A stretch of DNA of 64,000 bases from Siphlonurus alternatus (Eukaryota; Arthropoda; Insecta; Ephemeroptera; Siphlonuridae): positions 32,000,359 to 32,064,358 of the forward strand of contig OX463779.1 in NCBI GenBank assembly GCA_949825025.1. Direction: 5' to 3'. A program made the position numbers and the translations under genes. Position 1 is the stretch's first letter, and every line of letters begins with the position of its first letter. Below are positions 1-41,791 of this stretch, piece after piece. Below the pieces are notes generated by a model. It saw nothing but the letters and a program-made list of their open reading frames with translations, had not been told where the DNA came from and did not search any database.

Positions 1-1776
1 TCCACCCTCAGGGGTGCGTCGGGGAGAAAATCTAAAATTATTTCCAAATTTTTAGGAGGGTCGATTACACCTTGAAAATTAATTTCATAATTTTATCCCA
101 ATCAGTATGAAAAATTAACAATAATTTAATATCATATGGATCGACATATACATTTTATGCATATATACCACGCGCCGCGCGCAAGACTCTATTTAAAGCA
201 AATGACACGGTGTATGGTCACATTTATCTGTTATTTTATTTATTAAGACTAATATTTAACTTTATTATGATAATAAAAAATTTGCAAGTGGATAATATTA
301 TATAATCACGTAAATTAACTCAGGAATGGTATGTTGTTCCTATACTGTTATGAACAGCTAGCCGCATTCTAGTAGTTCACACTTTTGGCCGCTAGAGGGC
401 TGAATTTGGTTGCGTTCGCGAATAGGAAAAGTGAAGAACTCATTCAGTTTGCCTTGATGAAATGACGCAAAGGCAGTACAAGCTATCGTCATATTGAAGG
501 AAAGGGTTAAAGGGTTGCCGCTATACTACTAACATAGTGATGCTATACGAACTCCAGCAAATAGGGTGGTAAAATGGGATGAGCTTCTCTCTCATTTCAT
601 CCCCTGAGAGCTCACCAAATCCCCATTCCCCTCACCATATTCCGAGCACTAACATGATCCTATACCCTTTCCCAGATCCGTGGTCGCAACTGTTATGTCA
701 CGTGTGTTTATATATATAAAAAAATCATTGCGTCACTTTTCATTTGTCGAAACAATATCACAAATGTCAAATCACAATTTTACATTCCCATATTTTGTCA
801 TTACTGACTACAAGAGTAAATGTGTCTAGTAGTCTCATGATTTTATACATTCATATCACAAAGGAATATCAAAATATATAGATATGGAGTTACATACACC
901 TCCAGAAAATAAGAAAGTTACTTTTGCTCTGTTAGTGGGTATTGTCACCTTGTTAATAGAAATTTATTGAACAAGAATAGTTTTGAGGATGTCTAGAATA
1001 TTACCTCCTCCTAAATTGCAAAACTACATTGTCTCTTAAAGCTGCAGGACCAGGAATGAAATTTATGCCACGGTAACAATTGTGCTGACCTGAAGTGTAC
1101 ATGATGACAAAAAGCTTGTGGTAGAGAAAATCTCTTTGTAATATCGAAATTCTCAGAATTTTTTGTACAAAGAAAATTGACGGATTTTATATTATTTAAT
1201 ACTACCTTGTGTAGTAAACAAAGCAAAATTTATATTTTACTCTCGCATTAATTTTAATAATTTAAAAAACGTAAAAAAAGACACTGAATTCTTAATTTAT
1301 GTGATGAAGAACAAAATAAAATAATACGTTTGGTTACAAATAATTGAGTATATTTTAAATACATAAAGCATATATAGACTCTATTAAGCAATACTTTATC
1401 CTATATTTATATCTTTATGTCGAATATGTCAGCCTTCTAATCTTCGGGCGCGATTTTGCCACTCTTCCGTTTATTCGTAAATACCAAGATAATACTAAAA
1501 AATCAAGACAGAAACGAATTATTAATTTGAAGCATATCGGAGTGATGATAACTTATTAAGTAAATATTACTAATTACTCTTTTAAGTTACAAAAAAGCAA
1601 CAAATCTCATCCGGCCGTGCAACAAGTAAGATTGAGCTTACATAACAATTATTTGTGTATAAGTGGCTACAGTAAATGTAAAAACTATTCTGATTATGTC
1701 AGCCCTCTCACTACTTTTCTTGTTCTCATATAATTAAAAATTTAATTGATTATACCAGCATAAATTATCGATCATT
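1..1776. other. AT-rich flank without a recognised gene
   Basis: No ORF here has protein-like composition. A GC-richer patch at about 340-660 contains a CTCF-like word (389-400) but no clear exon. The 5' UTR or promoter of the downstream LINE could extend into the last few hundred bases, but nothing marks its boundary. Confidence 0.5.
389..400 (+). promoter_or_regulatory. CTCF-like motif
   Basis: The word CCGCTAGAGGGC differs at one position from the bilaterian CTCF core CCASYAGRKGGC. Single motif matches occur by chance, so this is a candidate only. Confidence 0.25.
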
Positions 1777-1796
1777 AAAAAAAAAAAAAAAAAAAA

Positions 1797-3263
1797 ATGG
1801 CATTGTCAACCTTAAATCCATATTACCACATTTCTCACCCACCAGCTCAACCAAACCCAAGTCCACTTCTGGACGTGAACTACCTCTATTTTGCCCTAAC
1901 ATCCTGTCTGCAACAAATTCATCTGCTTAGATGTCAGTTCGCCACACTGACACCGAATCAGTCACCCCACCCAGCACACCCCAACCCTCCCCCACCTCCC
2001 CAAGCAACAAAACAAGTATCATCAACCACACCTATCCTATCTCGTATGCGTACGAAAAGTCCCTTAGACCGTATGCAGACTCAGAATCTTCAGCCCAACT
2101 CAGATCACGTGAGATACCCAGAGCTCAAAGAATATCTAGAATTCCTTGCTGGCATCATTCCTCCCCCCAACATTCCCGAGTCAGACATCACTTGCCAAAT
2201 CATAGAAAAAACAGGAAATATTTTCGACGTTCCCAGTTCCGTCGTAAAAGCTCATGCAGTCGCTGCTGACATCAAGATGAATGCAGGCATAGCCAAGAAA
2301 TTTAAAAATATATACGGCAACTTGGAACACCTCAGAAACAAACAAAGATTCCCTGGTGATATCGCTACACTGCAAGTAGATGGTGAAACCATTCTGTACA
2401 TAATCACCAAGTTTAAGTCCAACCATAAGTATTCCCAAAACCAAAATCAATTTTTGAAGAATTTCCTTAAAGGCCTGAATGGCCTTAAAAATCACTGCGT
2501 CAAAAATCAAATTAAAAGAATCGCAATCCCTCGTATCGGCTCAGGACTAGATGGACTCAATTGGAATTATGTCAAGAGCAAAATCGAAGCTATCTTCATC
2601 AACGTGGACATCCTTATTGAGGTCTACTCTCTGAAGCAGAGGAGAAGTCCTCGCCATATGGCGTCTTCAACAACATCCCAAGGTGACAACCAAACCCACC
2701 CCAAAACTTTCCTATCTGATCAACACACCTCCTTATCATCAAACGATGGTCTCATGCACCCTCCTCAAATCTCCCCTCCAAATTCCCAATTCCCTAAACC
2801 TTCTGCCCCTCCTCCTTCCCCCAAAACTCCACCCACTACTCTCCCCAATCCCTCTGCCCCACCCCCCTCCTTATCCCCCCCCACAATGGCCCACCTCACC
2901 CCCCAAATTGTCCATCAACCCTCATCTCCCCCTAAGTCCCATCCTCCCGTGCTCACCCGTCTCTGCACTTCGCAGACAACCACCCCCATTCGCCCCTCAT
3001 GTGTCACAAATACAAATAGTCCCCATCCAATGCCATCAGGCCCTCCCCGCCTCATCAAGGCTCCCTACTACTACAGGCTCAACATGCTCTCTGAAAGTTC
3101 CAAGTCCCCCTCCAGCTCTCTTCAGCATTTCCACTACCCCTCTACCCCCCATCTCCCCAAAGTTAACAACCCGCCTCAACATATAATCAGCTCGCCCAAT
3201 CCGAGCCCGCATTTTCGCGCAACCCTCTCTGCTCCACCCCGTCCAAAGTTGACGAGGTGGTAG
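1797..3263 (+). CDS. LINE ORF1: proline-rich protein with a TARG1-like macrodomain
   Basis: This is a 488-codon ORF starting at the ATG that ends the A21 run; an in-frame TAA at 1776-1778 excludes an earlier start. Residues 1-130 are low-complexity and Pro/Ser-rich. Residues about 132-280 form a macrodomain of the TARG1/OARD1 (ALC1-like) class. The signature pieces in order are NIFDVPSSVVKAHAVAADIK, MNAGIAKKF, TILYIITKFKSNHKYS, IAIPRIGSGLDGLNW and IEVYSL. The two residues known to be catalytic in human TARG1 (Lys84 and Asp125) align with K205 of IITK and D252 of GSGLDGL, so de-ADP-ribosylation of glutamate-linked ADP-ribose is possible. Residues about 285-488 are Pro/Ser-rich and probably disordered. 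No RRM, CCHC knuckle or coiled coil typical of LINE ORF1 proteins is visible. The DNA is C-rich and G-poor on the plus strand, unlike ORF2. The macrodomain assignment rests on remembered family motifs; the role in retrotransposition is inference. Confidence 0.85.
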   Translation: MALSTLNPYYHISHPPAQPNPSPLLDVNYLYFALTSCLQQIHLLRCQFATLTPNQSPHPAHPNPPPPPQATKQVSSTTPILSRMRTKSPLDRMQTQNLQPNSDHVRYPELKEYLEFLAGIIPPPNIPESDITCQIIEKTGNIFDVPSSVVKAHAVAADIKMNAGIAKKFKNIYGNLEHLRNKQRFPGDIATLQVDGETILYIITKFKSNHKYSQNQNQFLKNFLKGLNGLKNHCVKNQIKRIAIPRIGSGLDGLNWNYVKSKIEAIFINVDILIEVYSLKQRRSPRHMASSTTSQGDNQTHPKTFLSDQHTSLSSNDGLMHPPQISPPNSQFPKPSAPPPSPKTPPTTLPNPSAPPPSLSPPTMAHLTPQIVHQPSSPPKSHPPVLTRLCTSQTTTPIRPSCVTNTNSPHPMPSGPPRLIKAPYYYRLNMLSESSKSPSSSLQHFHYPSTPHLPKVNNPPQHIISSPNPSPHFRATLSAPPRPKLTRW

Positions 3264-6136
3264 TCTCAAACTCACCACTAAGGCTAAATATTCTCTTATG
3301 GAATGTGGAAGGCCTGAAAAAGCTAATACCTTTAATCTCAGACAATATTCTTGAGAACCGAGATATTATTGTATTCACAGAGACCTTCTTACTTGAATCA
3401 CTTGACATAAATGGCTACTACTCCTTCCACAACCTTGCTTTCAAATGGCAGAGAGGGAGACCGTTTGGAGGCATCTCATGCTTCATAAACCCAAAACATG
3501 GTCCAATTTTAAATTTCTTAAAACTTAAAGATTTTATCATCATCAAAACTAAATTTTTTACAGTCATTGCCATGTACCTTAATCCATATTTTACAGTTCT
3601 CGAACTAATGGAGGTAGTACTATATGCAATAAGCCTCACAGAAAATGATGCTAATGTAATTTTCACGGGCGATTTTAACTGTAGAATTGACCTTTCAAAT
3701 GTCCCGAAACATCTACGAAACAAGACAGATATTCTATTAGACATTTTAAATTCAAATGGCTACTTACTCTCTAATAGCCCCCTAGAAAAAACTTTTGTAA
3801 ACGCAAATGGTTCAAGTACAATCGACCTGCTTTTTTATAAACCTAAAAATTTTATATTAATAAAACATGTCATTATTTCTGAGACAAACTCGTCACTGTT
3901 AAAGAGTCATCTACCCGGTGAAATTATTTTAAAATTTACCCCTAGCAATCCTCCCAATAAAAAACTTTTTTACAGATCAAATTATTCAAACAAAATTGAT
4001 ATTAGAAATTATAATGACCAAATTTATACTTATGGTGATACCATAATTACTCATATCAATAATAAAGATGTAAATAGTCTAAATACTTTAATTACTAATG
4101 TCATTCTACATTCTACTATTGCAAAGAAAAATAATAAAAGAGTATCTAAACCCTGGTTTAATAGCGAATGTTATCTATCAAGGCAAGATCTTCTATCAAA
4201 ATTTCATGCCAGCAAATTATATTTATTCAAAAACCCAAATTTGCATGAGCAATTTATTCAGGCAAGAAGCTGTTATAAGGCTTTATTGAAGCAGAAAGAA
4301 TTAGAATTTAAAATTAAATCGGAAGATAAAATGATTAAAGACGCAGAGCTAGAACCATACACATATCTTAGGAAAGATAGACCACCAACTAAGTCATGCC
4401 CAATTAACATAGACAAATGGGAAAACCATTTTACAAATATCTTAAATACAAATAAATTACAATCCGACCAAACTCTCAATCTTTTATCATTAACAAGAGA
4501 CTATAATTGTAACTTAAATTATATTCCTCTTAATGAATTTGAAGTCTATAATTGTATGCAAAGCCTAAAAAACAATAAAGCTTCGGGCCCAGATTTTATT
4601 ACGAATGAACATTTGAAGCTAGTAAGCAAGTCGTTAACCCCAACAATCACCAATATGTTTAACCTCTGTATTGAAACGGCTACAATTCCGGAATTGTGGC
4701 GGATCGCCTACCTAATGGTATTATACAAAGGGAAGGGTAACATTATGTCACCCGACTCATACAGAGGTATTATCCATGGTGATACCATGTACAAACTCTT
4801 CTCGAGATTAATTGCAAACAGGCTTTTTGATTCCACCCACTATCTTATTCCAAAAGAGCAATACGGCTTTATGCCAGGACGTTCCACAATACAAGCTGTA
4901 TCCACAGTATATAATCAAATTAAACTAGCATTGGAGAAGCCAAAGGGTCATTTATATATTGCTTTTGTAGACTTCAGAAAAGCTTTTGATTCGGTCAATA
5001 GGAATTTGCTCATTGAAAAGCTGAAGTCATTTAAAGTAATTCCTTCTGAAATTTTGAATATCTTAGCTGTTATTCTAAATATCAATTATGTATGTGTTCA
5101 AGATCGCTTATCATGTTCTAGTAATATTATTCAATCTAACGGAGTTTTGCAAGGAGACCCGAGCAGCTCTCTTCTTTTCAATCTTTTTACTGCAGATATA
5201 ACTGAGATTACAAAAGATATAAACTGTGAAAATGAAAATGATCAAGTCGTACTAAATTTATATGCAGATGATCTTGCTATTATTTCAAAGAGCAAAGTCA
5301 AGCTACAAAAAGCGCTAAATAATCTATCCATCTGGGCCAAAACAAATGGTCTAGAAATTAACACAGAGAAAACCAAGTTTGTTAAGTTTAGAAGAGGCGG
5401 ACCGTTATGCAAAAACGATGAAATTTATTGTGACGGTCAAAAGATTGAATTTCTAAATTCATTTAAATATCTTGGCATAATACTTCAAATGACAGGGCTT
5501 TCTTTTTCTAAACATATAACAGAAAGATGTAAGAACGCTATCACTGTTATGTACACTATCTCAGGGCTGTCTGGTCTATCCGTCAAAACAGGGCTCAAAC
5601 TATTCAATTTAAAAGTCGCCCCTGTGGCTACTTATGGTATTGAAATTGTATGGCCTCATTTATCTGTATCCGATTTTGATAAATTAGAATCAGTAAAAGC
5701 TATGTTTGTTAAAAGATTACTGTGTCTGTCAAAATTTACCGAAACTAGACTGGCCTATAAACTGATAGATTCCAATTATTTTATTACAGAAATCAAAGAA
5801 ATGTTTAAACTTCCAACGACAGATCAATATTCCAATTTTATAGCTGTCAGGAATCAAAAAGCTCAGGATATTAATCCTGAGTTTTACAGCACTGATGCTA
5901 TGACATGTAAATATTGGTGTCTGCCCCAATTGGATAGATCCAATGTTAGAAATGTTTTAACTCGCCAGGCTGTTCACGGCTTCCACTATCTAATTTGTAA
6001 ATCTTCTGGTTATCATAAAGCTGAACAATCTTGTGTATGTAAATTATGTAATGAATATTGTAGCCAATATCATTTAAATATCTGTAAATCTAGAATTAAG
6101 TCTATTAGCGATTATGCCAGGGGAGATTTCATATAG
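3257..6136 (+). CDS. LINE ORF2: APE endonuclease and reverse transcriptase
   Basis: This is an uninterrupted frame of about 959 codons. Residues 10-230 are an AP-endonuclease-like domain: LLWNVEGL near 13-20, TETF at 41-44, GDFNCR at 138-143, STIDLLF at 187-193 and SHLP at 217-220 (the catalytic SDH variant). The reverse transcriptase follows, with SLKNNKASGPD near 436-446, LYKGKG at 489-494, YGFMPGRST at 536-544, FVDFRKAFD at 570-578 (catalytic D572), GVLQGDP at 629-635 and YADD at 669-672. A C-terminal knuckle CX2CX7HX3C spans C928-C943. There is no RNase H or restriction-like nuclease motif. The frame is open upstream of the first listed codon (a GTG), and the first in-frame Met (about residue 106) lies inside the endonuclease. 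Translation therefore probably depends on ORF1 by -1 frameshifting or stop-restart. The protein would nick target DNA and prime cDNA synthesis from the element RNA. Confidence 0.95.
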   Translation: MVVSNSPLRLNILLWNVEGLKKLIPLISDNILENRDIIVFTETFLLESLDINGYYSFHNLAFKWQRGRPFGGISCFINPKHGPILNFLKLKDFIIIKTKFFTVIAMYLNPYFTVLELMEVVLYAISLTENDANVIFTGDFNCRIDLSNVPKHLRNKTDILLDILNSNGYLLSNSPLEKTFVNANGSSTIDLLFYKPKNFILIKHVIISETNSSLLKSHLPGEIILKFTPSNPPNKKLFYRSNYSNKIDIRNYNDQIYTYGDTIITHINNKDVNSLNTLITNVILHSTIAKKNNKRVSKPWFNSECYLSRQDLLSKFHASKLYLFKNPNLHEQFIQARSCYKALLKQKELEFKIKSEDKMIKDAELEPYTYLRKDRPPTKSCPINIDKWENHFTNILNTNKLQSDQTLNLLSLTRDYNCNLNYIPLNEFEVYNCMQSLKNNKASGPDFITNEHLKLVSKSLTPTITNMFNLCIETATIPELWRIAYLMVLYKGKGNIMSPDSYRGIIHGDTMYKLFSRLIANRLFDSTHYLIPKEQYGFMPGRSTIQAVSTVYNQIKLALEKPKGHLYIAFVDFRKAFDSVNRNLLIEKLKSFKVIPSEILNILAVILNINYVCVQDRLSCSSNIIQSNGVLQGDPSSSLLFNLFTADITEITKDINCENENDQVVLNLYADDLAIISKSKVKLQKALNNLSIWAKTNGLEINTEKTKFVKFRRGGPLCKNDEIYCDGQKIEFLNSFKYLGIILQMTGLSFSKHITERCKNAITVMYTISGLSGLSVKTGLKLFNLKVAPVATYGIEIVWPHLSVSDFDKLESVKAMFVKRLLCLSKFTETRLAYKLIDSNYFITEIKEMFKLPTTDQYSNFIAVRNQKAQDINPEFYSTDAMTCKYWCLPQLDRSNVRNVLTRQAVHGFHYLICKSSGYHKAEQSCVCKLCNEYCSQYHLNICKSRIKSISDYARGDFI

Positions 6137-6470
6137 TCTATAGATTTTGAATAGCAATGAAGCAATAAGTTTTTTTTTTTTATTCTATCTATTTTCTATG
6201 TCATATTTTGTCTTATATATATGTGATTATATATATGATATATTATTATTATGATGTAACAGGCTGTTAGTATCATCTGTTATTTTATTTTATATTGTTT
6301 TATTATCATTTTCTATTGTTCTATTATTCTGTAACTATTATATATGTTTTGTATGTATGTTTTATGTGTTCTATTGTAATGTTTTTCTATAATGTATGTT
6401 TCTAGTGCTGTTAATATGTACACTTTCTGTGTTTAATAAAAGACTAATAATTAAGCAATACAATTTTGCA
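6137..6470 (+). other. LINE 3' UTR with polyadenylation signal
   Basis: AT-rich tract with TATTAT/TATATG words directly after the ORF2 stop. AATAAA at 6435-6440 is the only canonical polyadenylation signal close downstream. The end of the element is not sharply defined. Confidence 0.55.
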
Positions 6471-6647
6471 TAAAATTTTTAATTACAGAAACATGAAAAC
6501 AAATGGATTTGAAGTAAAAAAAAAGCTGCTATATTTAAAAAAAAAACAGTATCTTTTAATACCGGCATTAAATTGATATAATTTGGAAGTACCTAGTAAA
6601 GTGCTAAGGGCACGATAAGTCAGTAGTGTCAGTACTCACAGTTTCTG

Positions 6648-6680
<33 letters not shown>

Positions 6681-7857
6681 CCTAAAATATTTTCCACTTG
6701 ATAAAATAGGCAGGGTACTTTTCTTTGTCGTTAAATTAGGTTAATGAGCTTTTTTTAAGCAGGTATACATATTAAAATAATATACATTATAATACATAAA
6801 ATATTCTAATTATAATATAAATTTTACCAGTGCTTTTGTTCTTGCATTATTATTATTATTTACAATGAGCTCAAGAGATGATGAGAAGAGATGAGTAAGC
6901 AAATATAAAAGATACGAATGAAATAAAGTAAACAAAATAACAAAAAAGTCTCTGTATACTTTATGCAATGTTGAACTTTTATTATTATCATTATTATGAA
7001 AATGCGAGACCAAAATAATATTTATTTGTATTTTAATAATAATAAGTATAATAACTACAATAACATATGAGGAAAGAGAGAAAGAGAGAAAAGATGAGAG
7101 AGAGAGAGAGAAAGAGAGAGAAAGAGATCGAGAGAGAGAGACAAAAAAAGAAGAGGGAAGAGGAGAGGAAGTGAAATAAGTTTGACAACAACCTTTCTTA
7201 TTTAACTTAAAAAAAATATATTAACTGTTTTAATACAATTGTTGCTATAGACTTCACGGGTCCTTCATTTTCTTCTCAGCTGTGTGCTCTGTTAAAACAT
7301 CAGATCTGCTCCTCGAGTTTAAAACGATTGCAGTCATTGGTTGGAAATCTGCAACGTCTTTCATCATTGGTCAACACACGAGCAAAACACTTCACGGAAA
7401 CAGCCGATGAAGCCTCGGTAAAAGCGAGCAGCTCCCATACAAGTGCGGTTTGCTGTGGAACTCAACAATGCTCGAACTTTCAAGTCGCGCTCACCAGACT
7501 GGATGAAATCTAGGACGAAGTGTCGTCAACTGAAACGAAAAACGAACACGGTGATAGTAAAAACCTTGACAGTTAATGAAGGTTTCTAGCTCTTTAATTT
7601 TTTGTTGTGTTTGTCAAGTATGTCAAATAATATCAATTTTATTTCAATTATTTTTATAAAACTTATCGTTAAATTTTGTGTTCTTGATGGAATTTTATTA
7701 TAATATAATAATATAATGCTACTATGCAATAAAGTGTTCTATTTCTATGATTATACCGTTGTAACGTAATATGTTAGATTCGTTAACTGCAATATTTTTA
7801 AACAATAATCATATTTATAAACTAATTATTTTCAATATATATTATATTTCTTTTAGC
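6471..7857. other. AT-rich spacer with poly-T and purine-rich tracts
   Basis: Contains a T tract near 6645-6673 and a long GA/GAAA purine tract near 7070-7175. A somewhat GC-richer island at about 7240-7560 contains two ATTGGTT/ATTGGTC (CCAAT-box-like) words and a 61-codon ORF. That ORF has no recognisable motif and is not called as a gene. Confidence 0.4.
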
Positions 7858-8252
7858 AATGGGAAGCTGTGACCTGCCGATTTGGTCGCCATATTCTAAC
7901 TGGAGGATATTCGTATGTTGAAGATCAGCGGATTTTGACACTATTGCGCAACGTTTCTGCGCAGTTTTCCCGCTCCAAAATCAGAATACAAGTACCGCGA
8001 AATTTTTTAGAGTCTCTTTACTTAAACCGAGCTGATGGGGTTGCAAATAATATTTTAATAGTGACAAATGTAAAAGGTTAGTGACAATATGTGATTTTAA
8101 ATTCGGAAACAGAACTTACATGTGTTTTAAGAATTAACAATTTGCGATCGAAAAATTGCTCCGTATAGGATCTTACGAGCACCCAGTCTTTTCTTGTAAG
8201 TAAATGGTAGCCTGACAAAGGTTGCATGACGTCATCATCACAGCTTCCCATT
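7858..8252. mobile_element. Possible 395-bp element bounded by 15-bp inverted repeats
   Basis: AATGGGAAGCTGTGA at 7858-7872 is exactly inverted as TCACAGCTTCCCATT at 8238-8252. The interior holds a 70-codon ORF of no recognised family. The motif TTAGC occurs just outside both ends, but the flanks do not make a clean target duplication. It may be a MITE or a chance inverted repeat. Confidence 0.35.
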
Positions 8253-8601
8253 AAAATTAGCAAAAAAAGTGCAATTATATTATATATCGTATAAGGTGCA
8301 AAATTATTAAAATTTCCAATACATTTAAAAATCAATAGTAGGTAATGTTGTTTTTATTTGTAAATATTGATGATTGATTGAATTCTTTAGCTACGGCTGT
8401 ATTTAACGTCTATAAAATATGACACAATATTTGGCTAACTCAGACAAAACATTAGCAACGGAAATCGATGCTGCATGAGATCCATTACGTAGTTCAGACT
8501 TATATTTTATCTAATTTAGAATAGCTTTTAAAACTAAAGAAACTAAAAGCATGCAATATTTACTTCTTTTTTTTTAAATTTTTAAATAAAAAATGTATTG
8601 A

Positions 8602-8604
<3 letters not shown>

Positions 8605-8685
<81 letters not shown>
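8605..8685. repeat. (GA)n microsatellite
   Basis: An uninterrupted dinucleotide run of about 80 bases immediately left of the fold-back element. Confidence 0.97.
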
Positions 8686-8688
<3 letters not shown>

Positions 8689-8941
8689 CGTTATTCGTAG
8701 ATAACACGTACTCTCTTGTTTTCTCCCACGGCAGTTGTCGGGACTCTCAGTTTTGTCGGGATATCCCGACAGCGTTTTCGCTTATTTCTGATTCTCCGTA
8801 TGGAGAAGTACATAAAAAACATTATTTTAGTCAATTAAAATTTTTCCCAGTAATATACGATTAAAGTCGTTGAGAAAACGCTAATTTCGAAATCCAGGTG
8901 GCAGCACAGTCTCTCCCTCTCCCTCGTGTTTGTTTTTTTTC

Positions 8942-8957
8942 CCCGCAGGGGGCGCTG
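8942..8957 (+). promoter_or_regulatory. CTCF-like motif in outer left arm
   Basis: CCCGCAGGGGGCGCTG matches the classic CTCF core around CAGGGGGCGCTG closely. It lies in otherwise AT-rich DNA at the outer side of the fold-back structure. Function is inference. Confidence 0.35.
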
Positions 8958-8971
8958 TGTTCGAACTTTTG

Positions 8972-9369
8972 TCGGGATACTCTCTCTCGCTATGACGTCA
9001 TTAATATATACCCTGCTGACATTAGATGTATTAAGCATATTGACGGGACTTCTCGGACTTAGAGTGAAAATATTGAAAGGGAGAGCATATATTCCATAAA
9101 GTTACTGCCAGGACTTTAACCCTTCTGAAATTAATTCGTGGTAGAGTTCTTAATGGGATGCGAACTTATATCGGGATACTCTCTCTCGCTATGACGTAAT
9201 TAATATATACCTTTATGACAAAATATATTGTAAGCCTATTGAGAGGACTTCTTGGACTTAGAGTGTAAATATTGAAAGGGAGAGCATATACTCCTTACAG
9301 TTATTAACGGGCATTTTACCCTTTAGAAAATAATTCTTGATAAATTTCTTTACGGGATGTTTCCAATAA
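8972..9369. repeat. About 199-bp tandem duplication in left arm
   Basis: TCGGGATACTCTCTCTCGCT occurs at 8972 and again at 9171. The following text (ATGACGT-ATTAATATATACC, then GGACTT-TTGGACTTAGAGTG, then AAATATTGAAAGGGAGAGCA) repeats with the same 199-bp offset. The right arm carries only one obvious counterpart, near 18180-18250. Confidence 0.85.
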
Positions 9370-38960: not shown

Positions 38961-41479
38961 CAGAGACATATATAACGTTAAACAATAAATATTTTGTCAT
39001 TACCCTAATTATTTTTACTGTACTTCTATTTTTACAGTTTAACAAATAGATAAATTTAAATAAACACTGTATTTTTTAAAAGTGTTTATTAGAATATACA
39101 AAAAAATTAAACATTTGATTTGGAGAAATTAATTCTAACTTTAAAAAAACTGAAGGATTTATAACTTTTAATGTGATAAGTTATCACAATATGTCTGTTA
39201 TCAATGATAACAGACTTACTAGTAAATGTACATTTAAGTTTTTTACTCTCTGCATATTACTTAGGTTTTTCTTCATGTTTTAGTGTAATATATTATTATA
39301 TTCCTAACTTATAGGGAAATTTAATGAAATTCAGAAGAATAGCCTCTCTATACATATCCATTCGTTAAAAAATATTTATAATTGTAATTTTATCAAACTT
39401 TAAAGGACTTATAATTACATTGTATATTTATTTTTATAAATATTGATTTTTATCTTTTAGGTACTCATAACATTTGTGTAGTTGTTAGTACTAATTTGAT
39501 AAATTTACAAATATTATAATAATAAATTGATGGCAAAATTTTTGATTAAAAAACAAAACATGTACTTGAATCGCTGTGAGCCAGACAAAAAAAGGCTAAA
39601 AATATTTGTGTATGTAATTCATATTGAAAACAATAAATCAAATTATTAATATTTATAATATACGATAATAAACATATATAAAACTAACATGTAGTATTAT
39701 ATAATAATTTAAAATATTCTTATGTAATTAATGAATCATAAAAAAATGTGAAGTTTATTAAAAAAAAATGTTAAATTAGTTTGACCATTGCATTATAAAG
39801 TTGCAATGTTATAAATAATAAAATATAGCTACACAATTAATTTTCTCATATATAACATTTGTGACCTGACTTTTTTTTAATAATTAACTTTTTATAACAA
39901 GCCATAATTTTGCTCCTCGCGGTTGCACCACTTGCATAAAGTGTCATTCTCACACTGTGAATCATGCATGATAAAGCCCCTACTCGTTATAAAAACAGTT
40001 GCCTCACAACATAGATAGAAATTCTCCACTTTCTTGCGGTGCTGCAGCACTTCACCTACATTTGCTTAAACGACGAGAAATATGGCATTATATTGATGTA
40101 GAAAAATTTGTACTTGTTTCAGCAAAAAAAATAAAAAATAATAGTAATAATAATAATAAAAAAAAGTAGATGTATTATATATGTATTAAGGATAGTAGCC
40201 ATCATGCACTTTTGTGATTTTATATTTTCGTATCCAATGTACTCTTACGTACGCTTTTACAATCTGTTTCTTTTTTTTTTTTCTTTTTTTTTTTTTTGTC
40301 TTTTTGTTTTTTAAGTTTGACACCACGTAAATGGTATAAAATGCTGTATAGTGAATGTTTAATAAATATATAAATAAAAATAGTGCCTTCGCGGTGCTTT
40401 GGTTCTATCCCCACCCAGTTCTATTATATCTTGTATGTACTGCAATGTGGTGAAATAATTAAATAAAATATATTTAATGCAATAATTTAAATCTGTTCCT
40501 CAGCATTTTTTTAAACACTGTATTGAAACAAATAAACAAAATCAACTCAAAATAAAAAAATGCTGGTAGCATTATAAAATATATAATAAATATATATATA
40601 AAGAAAACTTTATTTGTATAATATTGTAACTGCATGTATTTTTCCCATTCCTATCTACATACGAATATCATATTATTATAATTCATAGACACATTTTTGT
40701 ATACATTATATAAATTGAATGTATATAACTAGTCCTATATACAGAATTGTTGTTAAATTTTAAATACACTTGTACATTATCATAATAATATATTTATTGA
40801 AAAATGCAATAGGATCAATAATTTATTTAAATTTAGTATTTATATGCAACATATTTAATGGCTTATAATCAAATTACGATTATTGTTCTGTTCATTCATT
40901 TACTTACATTATATATTATATAATGAACGTAGTAATAAACATATAAGCCATTACCTGTTATACAGTTTCTATAACTTAAATTTAAATTCTCGAGATCTAT
41001 AAATTTATTGCTAGGCTGCTTCTGAATTCTCCCATTTAAAACTCGTGTAACAAGTCTTTGAGACAAATTAAAATAATAAAAACAGTTTCCACGTTCTCTT
41101 TACAGTACTTGTTCAAATTTACATACGACTTCATTTTGTTCAAACAACTGTTATACAGTACTCTACATATTATACATTTTTTGAAGTCTTTTAAAGTCGG
41201 ATCTATAATAATAATTAATACTTCTTGTTAAAGACTATAATTATATTTTAATAACTCGTTAATATGTGGTGGTTGTAAAATATATTAAATGAATGTAGTA
41301 ATTTACAACCTTATATAGTTAAAATGAGACGATGGACAGCTCGTACAACGTTAAAGTTGAATCCAGTTTGCTCTTTGTACCTGCCAGATTTAAATATGAA
41401 CTAGTTTCTGCTGTGCAGCAAAGGTATGCATGTGGCCTAATACTTAAAGTAAAAAAAAAATAAATAAATAAATAAAATA
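38961..41479. other. AT-rich span with paired GATA palindromes
   Basis: Apart from two adjacent palindromes at 39173-39215 and a T/TC tract near 40267-40298, no feature is seen. The 40380-40430 patch (GGTTCTATCCCCACC) hints at a Pol III box B but lacks a partner box A. Confidence 0.4.
39173..39215. promoter_or_regulatory. Two adjacent GATA-containing palindromes
   Basis: GTGATAA-G-TTATCAC (39173-39187) is followed 5 bases later by GTCTGTTATCA (39193-39203), an A, and TGATAACAGAC (39205-39215). Both are perfect inverted repeats, giving four GATAA half-sites. Could bind GATA factors or simply be local snap-back sequence. Confidence 0.35.
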
Positions 41480-41733
41480 CATTACAATACAATACAATAC
41501 AATACAATACAATACAATACAATACAATACAATACAATACAATACAATACAATACAATACAATACAATACAATACAATACAATACAATACAATACAATAC
41601 AATACAATACAATACAATACAATACAATACAATACAATACAATACAATACAATACAATACAATACAATACAATACAATACAATACAATACAATACAATAC
41701 AATACAATACAATACAATACAATACAATACAAT
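41480..41733. repeat. (AATAC)n pentanucleotide satellite
   Basis: About 50 near-perfect copies of a 5-base unit. Long minus-strand ORFs of repeated Tyr-Cys-Ile-Val-Leu come from the absence of stops in all frames and are not genes. Confidence 0.98.
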
Positions 41734-41791
41734 CGTTTCAAATTTAATGAACGCACCATTCACATTCTTTTTATGACAATTCTTAATTTAA

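Follow-up and report, generated by a model that had tools for sequence, protein, structure and literature searches.

Why should a retrotransposon of the mayfly Siphlonurus alternatus carry a domain that handles ADP-ribose, and could that domain be an active enzyme? The question arises from the 64,000-nucleotide stretch of contig OX463779.1 analysed here (the window), in which the first open reading frame (ORF1) of a mobile element had been predicted, from the letters alone, to contain a macrodomain like that of human TARG1 (also OARD1 or C6orf130). No part of a LINE is less well understood than its ORF1 protein, and few ORF1 proteins have any known enzyme domain; they generally bind RNA and form ribonucleoprotein particles (RNPs). 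Our main reading, to which we give a probability of roughly 0.6, is that the window holds one copy of a young, multi-copy LINE whose ORF1 macrodomain is a TARG1-type ADP-ribosylhydrolase capable of catalysis, acting at the site nicked by ORF2.

The element is an insertion of ~5.06 kb on the forward strand (1395–6450; all window features below are on this strand unless noted), delimited by an exact 11-bp target-site duplication, TTAAGCAATAC, at 1384–1394 and 6451–6461, and by genome copies, of which L159 matches the window from 1405 and L158 from 1425 onward. An AAT/TAA run forms the 3′ tail and leaves the exact end ambiguous in the last bases; an AATAAA lies close to the 3′ end (6435–6440). 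ORF1 (1797–3263, 488 aa) has the same frame in copy L152. ORF2 (3257–6136, 959 aa counted from a GTG) is matched by L1 ORF2p and R2 chains, and contains an endonuclease (EN) domain match (PF14529, Exo_endo_phos_2; residues 102–201, 3560–3859; Pfam 3.3e-8) and a reverse transcriptase (RT) domain (PF00078, RVT_1; residues 499–742, 4751–5482; Pfam 3.7e-37). No LTR-like pair was seen in a direct-repeat scan of positions 1–9000 (20 largest of 40 repeat families). An EN–RT ORF2, a target-site duplication, 5′ truncation, absence of LTRs and dispersed, multi-copy occurrence were all found, as in a LINE. Elsewhere in the window, low-complexity sequence includes a long GA repeat tract (8600–8690) and, on the reverse strand, an open frame that consists of short tandem repeat units (41319–41759, YCIVL repeats).

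Residues ~132–280 of ORF1 (2190–2636) form, as predicted, a TARG1-like macrodomain: TARG1 is the best match over the whole domain both by sequence and by predicted fold, structure prediction returning a macrodomain fold with TARG1 closest, and chance similarity is rejected by these two matches. TARG1, an ALC1-like macrodomain hydrolase, is a small free-standing host protein, whereas the window macrodomain is embedded centrally in a 488-aa LINE ORF1, between low-complexity, proline-rich flanks, the C-terminal of which (2640–3260) has no Pfam match. By alignment, K205 (codon 2409–2411) and D252 (codon 2550–2552) are the equivalents of the catalytic Lys84 and Asp125 of TARG1, and G43, A45, F22, W129 and P118 of TARG1 are likewise kept. 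Pfam searches at E up to 1, the one method applied to the flanks, gave no RRM, CCHC, PHD or esterase match in the window ORF1, in agreement with the original prediction, in which no RRM, CCHC or esterase module was visible. Sequence, predicted fold, copy number, fixed EN–RT linkage and selection make the identification of a LINE ORF1 with a TARG1-like macrodomain virtually certain. Catalysis by this domain, predicted from its residues, is probable; TARG1 is described as using Lys84 together with residue 125 (PMC7050489).

The ALC1-like class to which the window macrodomain belongs also contains the bacterial antitoxin DarG and TARG1-like proteins of phages. DarG has the Lys without TARG1's Asp, and lies in an operon with the toxin DarT. 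An antitoxin of the DarG type was rejected for the window, where Lys and Asp are both present and the neighbour is an EN–RT ORF2 (PMC7050489).

To count copies of the family, the genome (455.7 Mb, 102 contigs) was searched with a 161-aa domain query and with the window RT; the resulting counts are lower bounds. The domain matched at all 150 of the places scored (of 317 candidates), with no internal stop at 147, and 25 matches, window included, are identical over the full length. These identical copies are spread over eight contigs, by which an assembly oddity was rejected. The RT is present at 86 or more places; of 4659 candidates 86 were scored, none less than 99% identical, and the family is therefore young. 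A frame of at least 965 aa surrounds the RT at 32 of the 86. When RT places were paired with 36 of the 150 domain places (those of the window family, at least 90% identical, some of them partial domains), a complete or partial macrodomain of the window type lay no more than 8 kb upstream in 19 of these 32, each time at a gap of 1805–1806 bases; only two of the other 54 had an upstream macrodomain, at larger gaps, so that 19 of 21 pairs share the fixed spacing. For the other 13 full-frame places none of these 36 lay upstream within that distance; the four of them that were fetched are all 5′-truncated, as expected for LINEs, with starts past the macrodomain in three and inside the final ten macrodomain residues in one (L155).

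The macrodomain is not confined to this family. The remaining matches of the domain search are nearly all 36–41% identical to the query and mostly lie in open frames of ~450–790 aa, many of them forming large sets with a shared score and frame length, and a genome search with Pfam Macro returned 25 matches that include further families, the most divergent of them sharing 31.7% identity with the domain of the window. In the 14 macrodomain ORF1s compared, the domain is 31–40% identical to that of the window. All 14 have EN or RT sequence downstream, since in eight (window, L132, L134, L139, L144, L145, L147 and L148) the ORF1 is overlapped by an intact ORF2 of 959–1034 aa, five (L130, L135, L137, L138 and L146) have a broken ORF2, and the fetched part of the L151 ORF2 is its endonuclease end. 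The overlap with the ORF1 stop spans 41–112 nt in the eight families, with a frame shift of 2 in the window, L132, L134 and L139 and of 1 in L144, L145, L147 and L148; in most families ORF2 opens without an early ATG, and in the window its frame begins at ~3167, ahead of the ORF1 stop at 3263. The L151 ORF1 (locus positions 173–1774) consists of a PHD finger (1e-5), the macrodomain and a C-terminal region without a Pfam match, followed by an endonuclease ORF (1778–2701, 2.6e-10). One further locus, L153, is broken and sister to the window family; its macrodomain pieces are 57% and 34% identical and its ORF2 pieces 37% and 53%.

In the matched regions, the ORF2 of the window and those of the other families are 24–29% identical (32% over an additional short piece in L138); among the best 120 relatives of the window ORF2, Cryptotermes, Cloeon and Periplaneta are some of the named genera. 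In an RT tree of 42 rows, a quick one with SH-aLRT support only, some long branches and L135 under the label 'other', the window groups with metagenomic and insect relatives (95), and the macrodomain families L130–L148 form a group of their own (100) apart from it. Macrodomain ORF1s thus occur in many families of two distant RT lineages within one genome. An alanine--tRNA ligase entry from Periplaneta (P0118), in which LINE endonuclease and RT are joined to the tRNA ligase, is probably an annotation artefact. A 568-aa frame at L133 (locus positions 1546–3249) contains two tandem macrodomains, the first with K changed to R and D to N and the second keeping both, and ends in SYKQPSQYQSD-type repeats; no ORF2 match was present in the 10 kb fetched, and L133 is possibly a host or domesticated gene.

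Across the 14 ORF1s the Lys84 position is K in all 14, a count that rests on the multiple alignment, which puts the Thr/Ser-Lys of families with a gap opposite the lysine in pairwise alignments (L108, L113–L118, L122 and L127) in register, and the Asp125 position is D in 13. Left out of these counts are L136, L150 and L152, which nearly duplicate L134, L148 and the window respectively, L133, which has two macrodomains and no ORF2, L153, whose frame is broken, and the host genes L142 and L149. G43, A45, F22, G66, L100, P118, W129 and F140 are kept in all 14, and 13 or more share the same residue in only 20 of the 139 TARG1 columns. The pocket is variable elsewhere: none of the 14 has S at the S35 position, seven have G at that of G41, and two have K and one has C at that of G123.

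Selection was compared in nine pairs of sister families with shared members, whose macrodomains are 59–92% identical. The macrodomain dN/dS values (NG86), from the seven pairs that have truly diverged and have a finite dS, were 0.06, 0.07, 0.08, 0.10, 0.11, 0.12 and 0.19, ratios that are approximate as several macrodomain dS values are ~2 or more; those of the ORF1 flanks were 0.29–0.77 (N-terminal) and 0.43–0.75 (C-terminal), and those of ORF2 0.07–0.27. Left out of the macrodomain and C-terminal ranges are the L137/L138 macrodomain and the L147/L148 C-terminal part, where dS is saturated, and the near-identical pair L134/L136. Within every ORF1 the macrodomain and the flanks differ strongly in dN/dS, which makes the macrodomain the constrained core of these proteins and the centre of purifying selection.

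The one departure at the aspartate informs the main rival to an eraser, in which the macrodomain chiefly binds ADP-ribose, drawing the RNP to PARylated nicks or to a PARP, and catalysis is dispensable. In the L130 family, N replaces D at the Asp125 position in all four places (L109–L112; 98–99% identical over an open 755-aa frame), and T stands at the position of H32. This family was amplified with N at that position, and a LINE can therefore amplify without the full dyad. The ALC1-like class holds readers as well as erasers (PMC7050489), and PARP2 has been reported to help human L1 (PMC8535693), both of which accord with a binding role. Against it, 13 of the 14 ORF1s, deeply divergent as they are, have both Lys and Asp, and a pure reader should need neither, so that we regard this explanation as unlikely, if still the strongest competitor of an active hydrolase.

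Appreciably less probable is an RNA chaperone, in which the fold would replace RRM or CCHC modules as the core with which ORF1p binds nucleic acid, and the catalytic residues would be kept for reasons of folding. Such a role fits the lack of a further nucleic-acid-binding domain in the window ORF1 by Pfam, the presence of a macrodomain–RNA complex (3gpq) in the fold-search list for the window domain, and a net charge of +11 for that domain, with 13 of 14 LINE macrodomains positive. Charge, however, fails to separate the LINE domains, because positive values also occur in human TARG1 (+5) and in five of six phage domains (up to +10), and L151 is negative (–2); nor is there an obvious structural reason for conserving the Lys and Asp. 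Accidental read-through from a host TARG1 retrocopy, which the host genes L142 and L149 could seed, into an unrelated ORF2 is extremely improbable given the fixed spacing, the same order in many families, the purifying selection and a target duplication that flanks the whole unit, and its variant as one segmental duplication is ruled out by the differing flanks of the window, L152, L158 and L159 copies.

The 5′ part of these elements has also moved between families. In the L135 family, found at three places (L123, L124 and L122, the last being the L135 locus), the 5′ region through the macrodomain (L135 positions 1666–2868) is 85–98% identical in DNA to the L139 family, and identity falls to 61–71% directly past the macrodomain and 54–60% in ORF2. 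The L135 ORF2 shares 59% identity with that of L132 over its first part and 65% over the remainder, against 47% and 50% with that of L139, and the endonuclease parts at the other two places are 60–61% identical to L132 and 48–49% to L139. Judged from these comparisons, a 5′ module with its edge at the macrodomain end has been swapped between LINE families; an exchange of ORF1 between CR1 and L2 lineages was proposed earlier (PMC4120745).

As to the origin of the domain, the genome has at least two host TARG1-like genes, L142 and L149, each found once by the domain search and each with an apparent splice acceptor before the coding exon. In a tree of 25 domains (without L136, L150, L152 and L153), phage domains are split from animal ones (97/89), and in the best free tree both host genes fall among the LINE domains. 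AU tests did not reject the window and 12 other LINE domains as one clade (p = 0.315); the same clade with the PHD-type L151 gave p = 0.074, and the window grouped with human TARG1 p = 0.083. A single capture and several captures by LINEs are not separated by this tree and these tests.

With the domain within ORF1 as query, a protein-database search returned five near-identical 307-aa proteins with Pfam Macro; the domain alone gave no match at E 0.001. TARG1-like matches occur in 54 phage records, 21 of them over at least 80% of the query, and Lys and Asp are retained in all six phage domains aligned, including Bacillus phage G gp437 and those of Lactobacillus phages LP65 and LpeD and Fusobacterium phage Fnu1. 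In viral contigs neither a window-like macrodomain (single-sequence search) nor relatives of ORF2 were found; with the phage–window alignment as query, 84 relatives were recovered and 80 kept, of which 11 loci were used, L040 and L052 being omitted for a stop inside the stretch. LINE-type ORF2 sequences were also seen on 18 contigs from prokaryote bins (L001–L018), including bins of Alviniconcha and Bathymodiolus symbionts; these are likely contamination from animals or other eukaryotes, and no macrodomain was found on them at E up to 1.

What might a TARG1-like hydrolase do for a LINE? We hypothesize that ORF1p would bind the LINE RNA and the macrodomain would travel in the RNP to the site nicked by ORF2, where any PARPs of the host that respond to the nick would place ADP-ribose on the RNP, chromatin or nucleic-acid ends. 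The macrodomain would bind these marks and strip the ester- or phosphate-linked ones by its Lys/Asp mechanism, and their removal could let target-primed reverse transcription finish or the RNP be released. TARG1 has Glu and Asp esters and ADP-ribosylated ends of nucleic acids as substrates and PARP1 as an interaction partner (PMC7050489), and a review places PARP1 and PARP2 at human L1 integration sites (PMC8535693). Action of the macrodomain against PARP marks at the nicked target site is nevertheless a tentative proposal, and the roles first put forward for it (countering PARP at nicks, recycling RNPs, binding RNA or ADP-ribose) are likewise ones that we infer. Since loss of PARP1 or PARP2 lowers human L1 retrotransposition (PMC8535693), erasure of ADP-ribose could hurt rather than help, and the direction of any macrodomain effect on retrotransposition is uncertain.

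Known LINE ORF1s have been sorted into types I–V (RRM/CCHC, L1 type, PHD, esterase and unclassified), which like the window ORF1 are the first ORF of an EN–RT LINE and are modular and, as has been proposed, exchanged between lineages (PMC4120745), whereas the core domain here is a macrodomain. The main text of that survey, which covers 448 Jockey-superfamily elements, is without macro- or ADP-ribos- words (PMC4120745). Precedents for an enzyme domain in ORF1 are the SGNH esterase of ZfL2-1 (PMC3905857) and the virus-type SF1 helicase of insect Jockey elements (PMC5563155), which are other enzymes with other chemistry, whereas an ADP-ribose target ties the window element to PARP signalling. In the ZfL2-1 paper the sole macro- word is apparently 'macromolecular' in a reference title (PMC3905857), and none was found in the Jockey helicase paper (PMC5563155). 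A macrodomain in a LINE ORF1 was not found in the open-licence literature, as judged by titles and the starts of abstracts of the top-ranked matches.

RNA viruses deploy macrodomains against antiviral ADP-ribosylation. It is possible, though doubtful at present, that the mayfly elements represent a parallel to these: a new enzymatic class of ORF1, in which an active eraser taken from an animal TARG1 gene overcomes PARP marking and serves as an exchangeable 5′ module across distant LINE lineages. If so, an ADP-ribosylhydrolase under selection in the ORF1s of many families would tie retrotransposition directly to PARP signalling, and K205 and D252 offer a clear two-residue handle on whether a mobile element edits ADP-ribose marks. 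The findings suggest that a host repair gene became part of mobile elements and was traded between element families, and that mobile DNA may interfere with the DNA-damage signalling of the cell.
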